From contig VBFH01000022.1 of the NCBI GenBank assembly GCA_005883575.1, forward strand, positions 62,001-126,000: a stretch of 64,000 bases of DNA, in the 5' to 3' direction. The notes under the pieces are model-generated. The model was given only the letters and a program-made list of their open reading frames with translations, searched no databases and was not told the origin of the DNA. A program made the translations under genes and the position numbers. Within the stretch, counting starts at the first letter, position 1, and every line of letters begins with the position of its first letter. This document shows, piece by piece, positions 4,674-45,588 of this stretch. This DNA comes from Chloroflexota bacterium. Its GTDB lineage: Bacteria; Chloroflexota; Dormibacteria; Dormibacterales; Dormibacteraceae.

Positions 4674-5950
4674 GCCGCCGGCAATCCCGTGAGCTGTCCA
4701 GCGGTCGCGTGCATGACGAGCATGTTGAGGACTTCGCCCGCCACGATGTCGCCGGGCCGCAGCACGATTGCGCGCTTTCCCTGGCGGATGCGGCCGAATG
4801 GCCGATGGAGCTCATCGCGGCCTTCGATGAGGACCTCCACCTCGCGGCCGATCCACCGCGCCGTCTTGCGGGCCGCGATCCCGCGCGAGAGCGCGAGGAG
4901 ATCGTTCAGCCGCCGCAGCTTTTCTTCGTGTGGGACATCGTCTGCCATTCGCGCCGCCGCGTAGGTGGTGGGGCGCGGCGAGTACATCGCGATGTGGACC
5001 ACGTCGAACTCCAACTCTTCAACGAGGGCGCGCGTGTTCATGTATGCGGACTCTGACTCGCCGGGGAAGCCTACGATCACGTCGGTCACGAGCCCGATGT
5101 CCGGCATGAGCCGCCGCGCGTTCTCGACGATTGCCCGGTAGTGGCGCGTCTGGTAACCGCGGGCCATCCGCTTCAGCACCGTGTCGTCCCCGGACTGAAC
5201 CGGGAGCTGCAGCTCTCGACAGACCACGTCGCTCGACGCCATCACCTCGAGCAACTCGACCTCGAGGTCCTGCGGATGCGAGGTGAGGAAGCGAAGGCGC
5301 TTCAGTCCCGGAATCCTCTCGACCTCCCGCACCAGCGCCGCCAGCCCGCCACCACCATTCGGGTCCCGATAGTCGTCGACGTTCTGACCCAAAAGGACGA
5401 CCTCGCGAGCCCCGTCGTCGACCGCCTGTCGACATTCGGCCACGACCGCCGCCATCGGCACATGCTTCTCGCGCCCGCGAACCTTCGGCACGATGCAGAA
5501 GGTGCAGTTGTGATCGCAGCCCTGGATGACACGCACGTAGTGGCTGACCCCGGTCCGTCCGGCGTGCGGCAGAGCCTCGCCTTGCGAGTAGTCGTAGCGA
5601 GCTTCGAGCTCGGCGACGAACGGTTCGTAGTCACCGATCGGGACCACCGCGTCCAGGTGCGGGAAGCGGCTGCGCAGCTCCTCGCCCTCCTTCCCCACCA
5701 GACAGCCTGTCAGCGCGATAGTGCGTTCCGCTGTCTTCCACTCCTTCAACTCGTGGAGCTTCGAGTAGACGCGGTTCTCCGACGCCTGGCGCACGACACA
5801 CGTGTTGAGGATGGCGACGTCCGCTCGCTCCAGCGAGTCCTCGACGTAGCCGGCAGCCAGCAGCCTTCGGGCGAGGCTCTCCGAATCAGCCGAATTCATC
5901 TGGCATCCGATCGTCCAGATGCTGAACGACCTGGTCTGGACTCCCGTCAG
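4670..5950 (-). CDS. miaB: tRNA-2-methylthio-N6-dimethylallyladenosine synthase MiaB (radical SAM methylthiotransferase)
   Basis: Radical-SAM motif GCDHNCTFCIVP. The supplied ORF starts at Met 5899, but the frame continues upstream as LTGVQTRSFSIWTIGCQ-MNSADSE, restoring the conserved GCQMN cysteine. Best start is CTG at 5950. Confidence 0.93.
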   Translation of the reverse strand: MTGVQTRSFSIWTIGCQMNSADSESLARRLLAAGYVEDSLERADVAILNTCVVRQASENRVYSKLHELKEWKTAERTIALTGCLVGKEGEELRSRFPHLDAVVPIGDYEPFVAELEARYDYSQGEALPHAGRTGVSHYVRVIQGCDHNCTFCIVPKVRGREKHVPMAAVVAECRQAVDDGAREVVLLGQNVDDYRDPNGGGGLAALVREVERIPGLKRLRFLTSHPQDLEVELLEVMASSDVVCRELQLPVQSGDDTVLKRMARGYQTRHYRAIVENARRLMPDIGLVTDVIVGFPGESESAYMNTRALVEELEFDVVHIAMYSPRPTTYAAARMADDVPHEEKLRRLNDLLALSRGIAARKTARWIGREVEVLIEGRDELHRPFGRIRQGKRAIVLRPGDIVAGEVLNMLVMHATAGQLTGLPAA

Positions 5951-6255: not shown

Positions 6256-7033
6256 GGTCGATTCGCTGGATGGACGTAGCCCGGCCGCTGGAACCATTAA
6301 TGGTAACCAGTACGGAATTGAATGTCACTGGGCCAGACGCCACCACGAAGCGGTTCGGAACCCCGGTCAGGAAGCGTTGGATGACGACGTTCTTGTCCAT
6401 GCCGATGCATCCGTCCCGTGGCCCCACCATGCCGACGTCGGTCACGTAGGCGGTGCCGCCGGGCAGGACCCGCGCATCGGCGGTCGGCACATGCGTGTGG
6501 GTGCCCACCACGGCGCTTGCCCGGCCGTCGAGATACCACCCCATGGCGGCCTTCTCCGAGGTCGCCTCCGCGTGCATATCGCAGAAGACGATCCGGACCT
6601 CGGGGTGAGCCGCCAGGATTGCATCCGCCGCCCGAAAGGGGTCGTCGAGCGAGTCCAGGAAGATCCGGCCGATCAGGTTCAGGACCAGGACCTGGCGGCC
6701 GCCGGCCCCGACCACGCACCAACCCTGGCCGGGTGCGGAGGGCGGATAGTTCGCGGGCCGCAGCACGTTCTGAAGGCTCGGCAGCTCGCCGAGGAAGTCC
6801 TTTTGCGCGAAGACGTGGTTGCCGCTCGTGATCACGTCTGCGCCCGCGCCTTTGAGCTCCGCGGCGATCTTGGCGGTAAGGCCAAAACCGCCGGCCGCGT
6901 TCTCGCCGTTCAGGATGGTCAGGTTCGGCCGGAGCTCCTTCTTCAGGCCGGGCAGCAGCGCCTTGACCGCGTCGCGGCCGGGATGCCCGACTACGTCCGC
7001 AATGAAAAGAATCCTGAATTCGCTGTCAGGCAC
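6242..7033 (-). CDS. ymdB: YmdB-type metallophosphoesterase (TIGR00282 family)
   Basis: FRILFIADVVGHPGRDAVKALLPGLKKEL...NGENAAGGFGLT...SGNHVFAQK; ORF track start 7051 (TTG) lies in the terminator T-tract, so GTG at 7033 is likelier. Confidence 0.92.
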   Translation of the reverse strand: MPDSEFRILFIADVVGHPGRDAVKALLPGLKKELRPNLTILNGENAAGGFGLTAKIAAELKGAGADVITSGNHVFAQKDFLGELPSLQNVLRPANYPPSAPGQGWCVVGAGGRQVLVLNLIGRIFLDSLDDPFRAADAILAAHPEVRIVFCDMHAEATSEKAAMGWYLDGRASAVVGTHTHVPTADARVLPGGTAYVTDVGMVGPRDGCIGMDKNVVIQRFLTGVPNRFVVASGPVTFNSVLVTINGSSGRATSIQRIDREHV

Positions 7034-36841: not shown

Positions 36842-37063
36842 TCATCGCTGCCGGAAAACGAGGTTGAGGACGACCGTGAGCAGCACCGACAGGACGACGC
36901 TGGTGGCGATCGGAAGATAGATCGTCACGTTCCCGCTCCGGAAGGTGAGATCTCCAGGCAGATGGAACCTCCCAAACAGCATCAGGCCCCCGCCGATGAT
37001 GGCGAGCAGCACGCCGAAAACGAGGAACATCCGCCCCACATCAGCCATTTGGTAATTAAACAT
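36842..37063 (-). CDS. DUF2905 family small membrane protein
   Basis: MADVGRMFLVFGVLLAIIGGGLMLFGRFHLPGDLTFRSGNVTIYLPIATSVVLSVLLTVV; start MFNYQ. Confidence 0.88.
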   Translation of the reverse strand: MFNYQMADVGRMFLVFGVLLAIIGGGLMLFGRFHLPGDLTFRSGNVTIYLPIATSVVLSVLLTVVLNLVFRQR

Positions 37064-37065
37064 CC

Positions 37066-37162
37066 CTACCCTCCCCGGCCTGAAATCGCGGTGTTGGGTG
37101 CGGATTTCAGGCCGAAGCGACGATGGCGCCGGGCGGCCTGGGTCTCGTTGGTCCCGGGCCAC
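37066..37162 (-). repeat. Structured palindromic element, copy 1 (5' of the DUF2905 gene)
   Basis: Minus: GGCCTGAAATC-CGCACCCAACACCGC-GATTTCAGGCC-GGGGAGGGTAGGG-ATG; 11-bp perfect stem; similar to 44399-44487. Confidence 0.8.
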
Positions 37163-37240
37163 CCCCCAGTCCGTGCGCAGACCCCGCTTGGCCATGGAAG
37201 GACCGCTTTGTGGAGGCACTGCGGGCGCCATCCCCGTGAC

Positions 37241-42000: not shown

Positions 42001-44385
42001 TCACTCTCGGAACCCCGCGCGGTGTCTTTTCTCCAGCCCCCGTCTGATCTCCGACATCACCTTGTCCACTTCGGCGTCCGTCAGGGTGCGCTCCGGACTT
42101 CTGAAAGTCAAGGTGAACGCGATGCTCTTGTGACCTTCGCCAACCTGCGCGCCGCGATACTCGTCGAACGCGCGCGCGTGCTCGAGAAGTTCGCCGCCTG
42201 ATTCCTTGATCGCGAGCAGCAGCGCCCCGGCCGCGACGATGTCTTCGACCACCACGGCGAGGTCGCGCTCCACCGCCGGAAAGCGCGGCAGCGGTTGCGC
42301 GCGAGGGATGCGCGACGCGGCCAGCACCGGCTCGACGTCGATCTCGAACGCCACCAACCTACCCTCGAGCCTCGCGCCGGCTGTGACCGTCGGGTGCAGC
42401 TCGCCCAGATAGCCAAGCTGCCGGCCGTCAAGCACGACCGCCGCGCAGCGTCCCGGGTGAAACAGCTGCGCGGCCGCTCGCTGATATGTGCACGTGGGCG
42501 CCGAGAGAGCGGCCACACACCCATCGAGGACCGACTTCAGGGCGCGCAACGTCTCAGCACCGGCTTCCGCTGACGCTGCGGCCGATATCACCGCGGCCAC
42601 GCGGAGCGGCTCCTCCGGCTGCGCGTTCTTCTCGCCGACTCGAGCGAGGAACGCGGCGGCGATCTCATAGACGCGGACATCGATCCGTCCACGGTCTCGA
42701 TTGAGGGCGACCGCGTCGACGAGCGACGGCAGCAGCGAGGTTCGCAGAGTGTCCATCTCGTCGCTCAATGCGTTGGAGACGGGCATCGCGCGGGCGGCGA
42801 TGCGCAGCTCTTCGAGCCTGGCTCCGGAAACGAGCGCTGGATTCCACGTCTCCGTGAAGCCGGCCCCGGCGAGAACCTCGCGCACGTCGTCAAGCCGTCG
42901 GTCCACGCTCGGCGAGAGTGGCGTCCATGTTTCGTGACGGCGGCCTGGCAGCGTCGGCGGCACGCGGTCGTAGCCGTAGACCCGGCCCACCTCCTCGACA
43001 AGGTCCTCTGGGATCGTGACGTCGAGCCGAAATACCGGTGGGAGCACATCCCACTCCCCGTCGCCCATCACCTTGACGTGAAAATTGAGCCGCCTGAGGA
43101 TCGACTCCGATTCCTCAAGCGGGACGTGCGTGCCCAGGACGTGGTCGATCAGCGCCGGCCGCAAGTTCACGCGCACCGGCTCTTGCGGCCGCGGATAAAC
43201 GTCGGCCCAGTCCCTGTGCACGGCGCCGCCCGCGAGCTCGGCGATCAGCGACGCGGCTCGGCGCGCGCCGGCCAGGGCGAGCTCGGGCGGCAGGGCCCTC
43301 TCGAATCGCGCCGAAGCCTCGGTGCGCAGGCCAAGGGCGCGTGACGTCTGCCTGACGCTCGGTCCGCTGAACGTCGCCGACTCGAGCAGGACGTCTTTGG
43401 TCAGGTTCGTGACCGCGGTGTCTTCCCCACCGATGACGCCTGCCAGGGCTACGGGCCGCCGAGCATCGGCGATGACCAGCATGTCCGGGGTCAGCTCCCT
43501 CACTACCCCGTCGAGTCCTAGCAGCCTTTCCTTTTCGCGAGCGCGCCGCACCTCGATCGCCGGTCCTTCGAGTTTCTCCAGGTCGAAGGCGTGCAGCGGC
43601 TGCGCGTATTCGAGAAGGACGTAGTTCGTGATGTCGACGATGTTGTTGATCGGACGCACGCCGGCCGCGCGCAGGCGGCGCTGAATCCAGTCCGGGCTTC
43701 GTCCGACTTTCACCCCCTTGATCACACCGCCGATGTACCGGCTGCACAGATCGGGATCCTCGATGCTCACATTGACCAGGTCGCGGCCGGGCGGCTCGGC
43801 GGTGCCGGTGAAGGCGGGCATGAAATCACGCTTGAGCGGCCTGTCGAGGCCGGCGGCCAGCTCACGCGCGATCCCGAGGTGGCCCATGCAATCGGGGCGG
43901 TTGGAGGTGACCTCGGCCTCCATGATCGCCTGGCTCGGGATCACCGATGACAGCGGCTGGCCTGGTGTGCCGCGATCCAGGATCAGGATTCCGGAGTGGT
44001 CTTCGCCCAGCATCAGCTCGGCTGCTGAGCAAAGCATCCCGCTCGCCCTGTAACCGGCGATGTTTAAGTCTTTGACGAGCCTGCCATTGGGCACGGTCGT
44101 GCCCGGGAGCGCCACGGGCACCAGCGCTCCGGGGATGGCGTTGGGGGCGCCGGCGATGATCTGCTGGACGCGGCTTCCGATATCCACCTGGTGGACCCAG
44201 AGATCGTTGCGCGACTTCGGATGCTTGACCTGCTCGAGCACTTTGCCGATCACGATCTGAGACAGGTCGACCATCGTGAGCGACTCGACCTCGACGCCCT
44301 GACGGGTCAGGATGTCGGCAGCGTCCTTGGGCGTGATGCCGTCGAGGTCGACGAAGTCTCCGAGCCACTCGTAGCTGATGCGCAC
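42001..44385 (-). CDS. pheT: Phenylalanyl-tRNA synthetase beta subunit
   Basis: MRISYEWLGDFVDL; tRNA-binding, B5 and FDX-ACB domains. Confidence 0.97.
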   Translation of the reverse strand: MRISYEWLGDFVDLDGITPKDAADILTRQGVEVESLTMVDLSQIVIGKVLEQVKHPKSRNDLWVHQVDIGSRVQQIIAGAPNAIPGALVPVALPGTTVPNGRLVKDLNIAGYRASGMLCSAAELMLGEDHSGILILDRGTPGQPLSSVIPSQAIMEAEVTSNRPDCMGHLGIARELAAGLDRPLKRDFMPAFTGTAEPPGRDLVNVSIEDPDLCSRYIGGVIKGVKVGRSPDWIQRRLRAAGVRPINNIVDITNYVLLEYAQPLHAFDLEKLEGPAIEVRRAREKERLLGLDGVVRELTPDMLVIADARRPVALAGVIGGEDTAVTNLTKDVLLESATFSGPSVRQTSRALGLRTEASARFERALPPELALAGARRAASLIAELAGGAVHRDWADVYPRPQEPVRVNLRPALIDHVLGTHVPLEESESILRRLNFHVKVMGDGEWDVLPPVFRLDVTIPEDLVEEVGRVYGYDRVPPTLPGRRHETWTPLSPSVDRRLDDVREVLAGAGFTETWNPALVSGARLEELRIAARAMPVSNALSDEMDTLRTSLLPSLVDAVALNRDRGRIDVRVYEIAAAFLARVGEKNAQPEEPLRVAAVISAAASAEAGAETLRALKSVLDGCVAALSAPTCTYQRAAAQLFHPGRCAAVVLDGRQLGYLGELHPTVTAGARLEGRLVAFEIDVEPVLAASRIPRAQPLPRFPAVERDLAVVVEDIVAAGALLLAIKESGGELLEHARAFDEYRGAQVGEGHKSIAFTLTFRSPERTLTDAEVDKVMSEIRRGLEKRHRAGFRE

Positions 44386-44393
44386 TATTTCAT
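44385..44393 (-). other. Minimal two-codon upstream ORF (ATG AAA TAG) overlapping the pheT GTG start by one base
   Basis: Minus: GGGGAAGGTAGGGTCA-ATG-AAA-TAGTG-CGC; TAG shares its G with the pheT GTG. Confidence 0.45.
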
Positions 44394-44398
44394 TGACC

Positions 44399-44487
44399 CT
44401 ACCTTCCCCGGTCCGAAATCGCGGTGTTGGGGTGGATTTCGTGCGGACGCGACTGAAGTTGCCCGTGGCCGGGTTTCCGGGCCACGG
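44399..44487 (-). repeat. Structured palindromic element, copy 2 (5' of pheT)
   Basis: Minus: GTCC-GCAC-GAAATC-CACCCCAACACCGC-GATTTC-GGAC-CGGGGAAGGTAGGGT; near-identical loop and flank to 37066-37162. Confidence 0.8.
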
Positions 44488-44559
44488 AGGCGGCGGGGAG
44501 ACTAGTGACAGCTGATGCTTTGCTCGGTCGTGCGTTGTTCAACAGCCACGTCACTCGCG

Positions 44560-45588
44560 CTAGAACTGCTCCAGGAACCGCAGGTCGGGTTCGTAGAACA
44601 GGCGGATGTCGTCGACGTCGTGCTTCAGCATCGCCATCCGCTCGATGCCGAAACCCCAGGCGTAGCCGTTCCACTGGGTGGGGTCGATGCCTCCGTTGCG
44701 CAGCACCTGCGGGTGCACCATGCCGCACCCACCCACCTCGAGCCACCCTTTGTGGCGGCAGCTCTTGCATCCGACCCCGCCGCAGATCCCACACGACACG
44801 TCGAACTCGAAGCTCGGCTCCGTGAAGGGGAAGTAGCTCGGACGGATACGAACTTTGCGCTCGCGTCCGTAGAGCGACTGGATCATGTACAGGAGCGTGC
44901 CCTTCATGTCGCCGACCGTGAGGCCGTTGTCGACCGCAAGCCCTTCCACCTGGCTGAAGTAAGGAAGCCGCGTCGCCTCCGGGGGATCGCGCCGGTACAC
45001 GCGGCCCGGCGTGATGATGTAGATCGGCGGGTCCTTGATGCTCTGCATGGCGCGTATCTGCACCGGCGACGTGTGCGCGCGCAGCAGCAGGTCGGGACTG
45101 AAGTAGAAGGAGTCCCAGCTCTCACGCGCCGGATGACCGGCGGTGAGGTTCAGCGCCTCGAAGTTGTACCACTCAGTCTCAACCTCGGGCCCGAGCTCGA
45201 CCTGGTAGCCGAGCGACTCGAGCACGGTCTCGATCTGCCGGCGGATCTGCGTCAGGACGTGGATGTGGCCGCGGCCGAGCGGGGGTCCGGGAAAAGTGAC
45301 GTCGATTGCCTCGGTCTCGGCCAGGTCTGCTAGCCGGGAGGCATCGAGCTCAGCGCGCCGCGCCGCGAGCGCGGCCTCGATGAAGCGCTTGGTTTCGTTG
45401 GCTGCCTTGCCCAGCGCCGCCTTTTCGGCGGCAGGCAGCTGGCCGATGTTGGAAAGCAGCCGGCTTACGTGTCCGCTCTTCCGGCCGAGATACTCGACCT
45501 CGATTCGCCCGAGCTCGCCCTCCGTCTGCGCCTGTCCGATCGCGGCAAGCGCACGGCTAGTCAGCGCGGACGCGTCGCTGTCGCTCAT
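44560..45588 (-). CDS. pheS: Phenylalanyl-tRNA synthetase alpha subunit
   Basis: VTFPGPPLGRGHIHVLTQIRRQIE...GGCGMVHPQVLRNGGIDPTQWNGYAWGFGIERMAML. Confidence 0.97.
   Translation of the reverse strand: MSDSDASALTSRALAAIGQAQTEGELGRIEVEYLGRKSGHVSRLLSNIGQLPAAEKAALGKAANETKRFIEAALAARRAELDASRLADLAETEAIDVTFPGPPLGRGHIHVLTQIRRQIETVLESLGYQVELGPEVETEWYNFEALNLTAGHPARESWDSFYFSPDLLLRAHTSPVQIRAMQSIKDPPIYIITPGRVYRRDPPEATRLPYFSQVEGLAVDNGLTVGDMKGTLLYMIQSLYGRERKVRIRPSYFPFTEPSFEFDVSCGICGGVGCKSCRHKGWLEVGGCGMVHPQVLRNGGIDPTQWNGYAWGFGIERMAMLKHDVDDIRLFYEPDLRFLEQF

Follow-up and report, generated by a model that had tools for sequence, protein, structure and literature searches.

Several kinds of dispersed or structured intergenic elements have been described in bacteria. 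REP and REPIN sequences are mobilised by RAYT transposases (PMC3116915, PMC3733652), and HEARO, the omega RNA of IscB elements, is represented by the Rfam family RF02033. Autogenous leaders such as those of S6:S18, L20, L10 and others are structured RNAs that precede ribosomal-protein genes, and riboswitches and orphan structured-RNA motifs carry a conserved loop within covarying stems. In Beggiatoaceae, TAACTGA direct repeats stand just before start codons, some of them in ribosomal-protein operons, and a translational role has been proposed for them (PMC4679880).

The element described here resembles each of these systems in part. It was recognised in a window of 64,000 nucleotides, which is the whole stretch of Chloroflexota DNA analysed, as a hairpin beside a DUF2905 gene; this hairpin is the 3' portion of a larger structured RNA-like element of about 175–210 nt. 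Like REP and REPIN sequences, it forms dispersed intergenic palindromes that sometimes occur in tandem and can fold as RNA. Unlike them, it has few copies, a conserved loop on variable stems, no consistent GTAG/CGTC tag, an SD (Shine-Dalgarno) tail and a fixed stop-to-start placement. It shares structure, similar length and dispersal with HEARO, but contains no nuclease gene and terminates with an SD beside a start codon. Like autogenous leaders, it stands before ribosomal-protein genes; unlike them, it also precedes many unrelated genes, within operons. The nearest published parallel in placement is the TAACTGA repeats, which are likewise dispersed just upstream of start codons, but those are heptamer direct repeats in a setting where canonical ribosome-binding sites are rare, whereas the element is an extensive covarying structure that brings an SD of its own. 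Finally, it resembles riboswitches and orphan motifs in having a conserved loop in covarying stems beside an SD, but differs in that it lacks a coherent regulon, is dispersing and has an SD that is predicted to be exposed rather than masked. Rfam gave no relevant match in the window and 12 loci, with RF02033 unmatched at the gathering threshold in the window and at E ≤5 in the 12 loci, and a literature search limited to an open library found no earlier record of the element.

The best reading of these results, which we place just on the probable side, is that of a lineage-specific, dispersing, cis-acting structured RNA leader, whose own exposed SD replaces translational coupling and whose P4 loop is probably bound by a factor. 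In the following, we summarize the layout, covariation, distribution and context of the element together with the alternatives that bear on this reading.

Table 1. Features of the two copies of the element in the window (all on the minus strand).
Feature	Position	Strand	Remarks
Copy 1, whole element	37049..37240	-	full gap between ruvB stop TAA 37241-37243 and DUF2905 start ATG 37046-37048
Copy 1, P1 5' strand CGGGGATGGCGCC	37224..37236	-	partner 37118-37130; 12/13 pairs, one G.G mismatch
Copy 1, P1 3' strand GGCGCCATCGTCG	37118..37130	-	pairs with 37224-37236; P1 covariation
Copy 1, P3 hairpin (GGGTGGCC ... GGCCGCCC)	37131..37164	-	folding and comparison
Copy 1, P4 hairpin	37076..37114	-	12-bp stem, bulged C, two inner G-C pairs, loop ACCCAACACC
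Copy 1, SD tail GGGAGGGTAGGG	37064..37075	-	anti-SD duplex -10.7 kcal/mol
DUF2905 gene, 68 aa, downstream of copy 1	36845..37048	-	PF11146, E 2.4e-17
Copy 2, whole element	44386..44559	-	full gap between pheS stop TAG 44560-44562 and pheT start GTG 44383-44385
Copy 2, P1 5' strand	44545..44557	-	weak: 10/13 pairs with 44450-44462
Copy 2, P3 hairpin	44463..44487	-	
Copy 2, P4 hairpin, degenerate, with beginning of SD tail	44405..44450	-	41.6 bits, E 1.9e-11
pheT, first 250 codons, downstream of copy 2	43636..44385	-	PF01588 and PF03483

The boundaries of copy 1 were set against the empty ruvB/DUF2905 junctions of five relatives (G005, G008, G009, G010 and G012). Read along the minus strand, the copy consists of P1 with a conserved G.G mismatch, a variable P2, P3, P4 and the SD tail. 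A preliminary description of this locus gave the minus-strand sequence of the hairpin correctly and its stem as perfect, which it is, with a length of 12 bp (37103-37114 with 37076-37087) in place of the 11 bp stated. Its extent of 37063-37165 was too small, since the element reaches from 37240 on the ruvB stop side to 37049 on the start-codon side and thereby includes P1 and P3, and the ATG at 37063 that abuts the SD was taken for the DUF2905 start, which orthologues place at the ATG at 37048. In copy 2, P4 is degenerate: the inner GC is absent, three outer pairs are broken and the 5' side is shifted (GTCC-GCAC-GAAATC). The compensatory change of the outer stem that had been proposed between the two copies is only partly real because of this partial degeneracy, and it is the wider family that gives convincing covariation.

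Across the family, the element follows a common plan. Its 5' end lies directly after the upstream stop codon and reads CG, followed by the 13-nt P1 strand, whose partner is located just before P4. P1 has 3–4 pairs, a 1x1 mismatch and then 8–9 pairs, and encloses the variable P2 and P3; among 36 well-formed copies, 32 show G.G as this mismatch (position 4 or 5). P4 directly follows the P1 3' strand, has a nearly invariant loop of the form AATCCGCACCC-nnn-CACCGCGATT and is followed by an SD such as AGGTAGGAGTC. By computation, the element spans the whole stop-to-start gap and adopts the fold P1(P2,P3)-P4, and the SD at its end pairs well with the 16S tail.

Both P1 and P4 stems covary strongly. 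In 43 related sequences, from which the P4 covariance model and the covariation test were built, 97.7% of P4 cells are paired, compared with 80.8% in shuffles. The covariation score is 0.425 against 0.123 in shuffles, none of 500 shuffles scored as high, slid registers reached at most 0.109, and 9 of the 14 pairs show changes on both sides. For P1, 28 distinct helices have 328 of 364 cells paired, compared with 214 in shuffles, and double changes number 117, whereas shuffles have a mean of 34; this test is biased towards P1 because the 5' strand was picked for complementarity. Pairwise comparison of orthologous loci (pheT, rpsS, dapA, rpsJ and DUF2905) yielded 72 double-changed, 15 one-sided and 58 broken cells, where cells count sequences, not events, and some of the broken ones result from the shifted mismatch. 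Compensatory base-pair changes beyond controls, as expected of a structured cis-regulatory RNA, are therefore present in P4, in P1 and at orthologous loci, and the RNA-level selection suggested in the preliminary description agrees with the covariation of the stems, on either side of an invariant loop, which is far in excess of that in the shuffled and slid controls. The covariance model, a check that it had also proposed, gives 64.9 bits for copy 1 (E 2.3e-19 in the window search) and 41.6 bits for copy 2. The remaining P4-model matches in the window have low scores, and the two that fall outside the element (4951-4984 and 6704-6749) are chance matches inside long open reading frames. A GAAATCC pattern proposed for searching occurs once in the window and in none of 100 shuffles, which together with the P4 covariation rules out a chance palindrome.

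The element belongs to uncultured bacteria and has a narrow taxonomic distribution among the compared genomes, which are drafts. Of 110 genomes of the class, 24 contain its exact core and none matches a reversed control pattern, but such a plain pattern is too narrow for finding relatives, and the P4 model detects 45 of the 110 at E ≤0.01. Across 399 genomes of the phylum, 18 match at E ≤1e-4, only in two families of one class. In the family of the source genome most model matches are full elements, and no carrier genome there has more than 8 P4 matches. In the sister family they are isolated P4-type hairpins, located in part at stop-to-start gaps within operons and in part behind tRNAs. A second hairpin of the type GGCGGAGTGAATCCGCC frequently comes after the sister-family hairpins (L112, L113 and L144 in G013; L109-L115 and L182-L194 in G024, G037 and G038), in some cases downstream of tRNA genes, and G024 has 13 P4 matches.

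Other repeats were noticed in the same genomes. A second hairpin family, CCCCACGAAATCCGAGGCTTCGCC..GATTTCGCGGGG, occurs in the source genome (G000) at C24:22267, C46:21763, C81:52107, C94:98426 and C104:12074, and in other genera between a stop codon and the hflX start (L202, L204 and L205). A repeat of about 100 nt with the hairpin GCGGCCGGGATGAACCCGGCCGC is found in clusters (L046; L036 in G003; G000 C58:44599-45055) and once before ackA (L035 in G004), and the apex of its hairpin resembles P3 of the element. A weak L20_leader match in L046 (E 0.19) belongs to another repeat.

The preliminary description counted two copies and had taken a genome-wide total of two as a point against its proposal; genome searches give five in the source genome, which precede rpsJ, rplB and rpsS (S10 operon), pheT and DUF2905 and are all oriented with the downstream gene. 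Comparison of orthologous junctions revealed gain or loss. At rplX/rplE, the element is present in G005, and the genes overlap in G000 (TGATG) and G011 (TAGTG); at rplW/rplB and at rpsJ it is present in G000 and absent in G005 and G011; at rplB/rpsS it is present in G000 and G011 and absent in G005. At ruvB/DUF2905 and pheS/pheT, several relatives lack the element, and other palindromic repeats occupy some of those gaps. The empty sites in relatives are clean and lie exactly at stop/start junctions, so that the idea of a specialised mobile palindrome, also put forward in the preliminary description, gains support from presence and absence at these sites. Orthologous copies across genera are often mutual nearest relatives (87% for rpsS in G000 and G091), and most sites therefore look inherited, with a few new or lost. 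The element is dispensable, since many relatives do without it.

Further repeats and remnants were seen at the same junctions. In G001, G005, G007, G009 and G012 (L076, L068, L072, L073 and L078), the palindrome GGATAGTCCGGACTATCC or close variants fill the pheS/pheT gap, which is the element site in G000 and G011. The ruvB/DUF2905 junction of G003 (L098) contains a relic that has lost P4 and retains the SD tail GGAAAGGTAGGGATGTTTAATTGACGT-ATG. In the DUF2905 copies of G011 and G006 (L056 and L059), a GC-rich palindrome, CCCGCGGCAAGCCGCGGGGACCCC, which is like the isolated hairpins, is inserted in the P4 loop and looks like one repeat entering another.

These patterns bear on a first alternative, which we judge rather unlikely: a miniature mobile DNA element, REPIN- or PATE-like, that moves as single-stranded hairpins, in which transposition would maintain the stems, stop/start sites would simply be those where insertion is tolerated and selection on the host gene would preserve the SD. 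Presence and absence at junctions fit this alternative, as do tandem copies at pheT in G097 and in G088 and a DUF2905-secD spacer that holds inverted copies in G012, G095, G101 and G088 (a tandem pair) and, in G097, one in forward orientation. Y1-transposase hairpins moreover typically have a mismatched palindromic stem (REPIN paper, PMC3116915). The inverted spacer copies retain P1, P3 and, save in G088, the P4 loop motif and point away from the operon, and they are the main difficulty for a pure translation-leader model. However, PF01797, the Y1 transposase, is absent from five carriers of the source family (G000, G088, G095, G097 and G102), in which control profiles matched; one weak match each was found in G024 and G013, of the other family. 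Neither the RAYT gene, sought in those five carriers, nor the conserved tagged stem and high copy number that mark REP and REPIN sequences were found, variable stems around a fixed loop are the opposite of REPs, and orthologous copies carry compensatory changes. As to the features of MITEs, P1 pairs the 5' end with an internal strand and not with the 3' terminus, and filled and empty junctions differ without clear target-site duplication, where 1–3 bases could escape notice.

A gene start lies downstream in 36 of 45 full-length copies, mostly 17–24 nt past P4, which gives them the fixed coding-strand position beside a translation start that is expected of a cis-regulatory RNA, with the inverted copies as exceptions. 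The placement beside start codons claimed in the preliminary description thus holds, and the near-identical, randomly placed copies that it had named as the contrary case did not appear; P1, the exact stop-to-start placement and the bias towards ribosomal-protein genes had escaped it. Such genes follow 17 of the 36 gene-linked copies (S10/spc operons) and comprise rpsJ, rplC, rplB, rpsS, rplN, rplX, rplE, rpsE and rplO. Because ribosomal-protein genes make up about 2% of a bacterial gene set, this bias is strong, with the reservation that copies at orthologous sites are not independent. The other downstream genes are pheT, rimP, DUF2905, dapA, oligopeptide permease, NAPRTase, cvpA and pdxT, all identified, like the former, by Pfam or sequence; among the targets other than ribosomal proteins, dapA, oligopeptide permease, NAPRTase, cvpA, pdxT and DUF2905 showed no common logic.

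The abundance of S10/spc targets would suit an autogenous leader, in which a single ribosomal protein would repress translation through binding to the RNA and copies elsewhere would be secondary, an explanation that we find improbable. Such a leader is expected at one operon and in a known family, whereas the element precedes nine ribosomal-protein genes as well as unrelated ones, its position in the operon varies between genomes, the same RNA stands at recurrent sites before pheT, dapA, DUF2905 and others, and no ribosomal leader of Rfam matches it.

The strength of the SD varies with the presence of a downstream gene. With an assumed anti-SD sequence and copies that are not independent, the anti-SD duplex is at -10.5 kcal/mol in copies with a downstream gene (n=36) and -6.9 in those without (n=9; p 1e-4); one copy of the latter group precedes an F420H2-dependent reductase gene, and moving it to the former group would shrink the difference slightly. 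Masking of the SD by the element is not supported, as the SD is predicted to be more open in native elements (0.48) than with shuffled ones (0.36; p 2e-6). An equally improbable role as an mRNA processing, stabilising or antitermination site acting through the P4 loop in long operons, with an incidental SD tail, would be in keeping with isolated P4-type hairpins that share the loop and covarying stems and lie between long-operon genes (before hisH, hisF, nuoE and nuoL, as read from the sequence), but it fits poorly with an SD strength that tracks the downstream gene and a fixed start-codon spacing, and leaves the conservation of P1 and P3 unexplained.

For the favoured reading, a dispersing structured leader, we infer the mechanism, binding partner and mode of spread as follows. 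On the mRNA, P1, P3 and P4 would pack tightly together and leave the SD exposed, and the downstream cistron would be translated from the element's own site, not by coupling to the upstream gene. In Escherichia coli and Haloferax volcanii, reinitiation or coupling is nearly lost at an inter-gene distance of about 20 nt (PMC10666635), so that an element of 175–210 nt should uncouple the gene pair. The invariant, C-rich P4 loop with its bulged C may serve as the docking site of a putative factor, such as an RNase, an antitermination factor or another RNA-binding protein, by which the expression of the cistron would be adjusted. Additional copies would arise by duplication into further stop/start junctions, where we propose that they survive because the downstream gene stays translated. 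Besides the inverted spacer copies, four observations count against this reading: the targets other than ribosomal proteins lack a common logic, P4-type hairpins occur in isolation, many relatives do without the element, and the ruvB/DUF2905 junction of G003 has the SD tail but no P4.

A more far-reaching possibility, which we offer tentatively and consider unlikely as a whole, is that of a mobile translation-initiation cassette, an RNA element, selfish or domesticated, whose insertions fall exactly between a stop codon and a start codon. Its own ribosome-binding site would make essential operons tolerant of insertion, its invariant loop would put the cistron under a shared trans factor, and a regulon of ribosomal proteins, PheT and others would be built by dispersal.

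The usual view is that operons tolerate mobile repeats only at harmless positions. The element, with its strong SD and strictly kept fold, occupies junctions of highly conserved bacterial operons, where overlapping genes would become separately initiated ones. From the invariance of its P4 loop, a new partner that binds RNA (or DNA) is to be expected in this little-studied lineage. If confirmed, these results would mean that a dispersing RNA can rewire translational coupling, and the element would provide a natural leader module.
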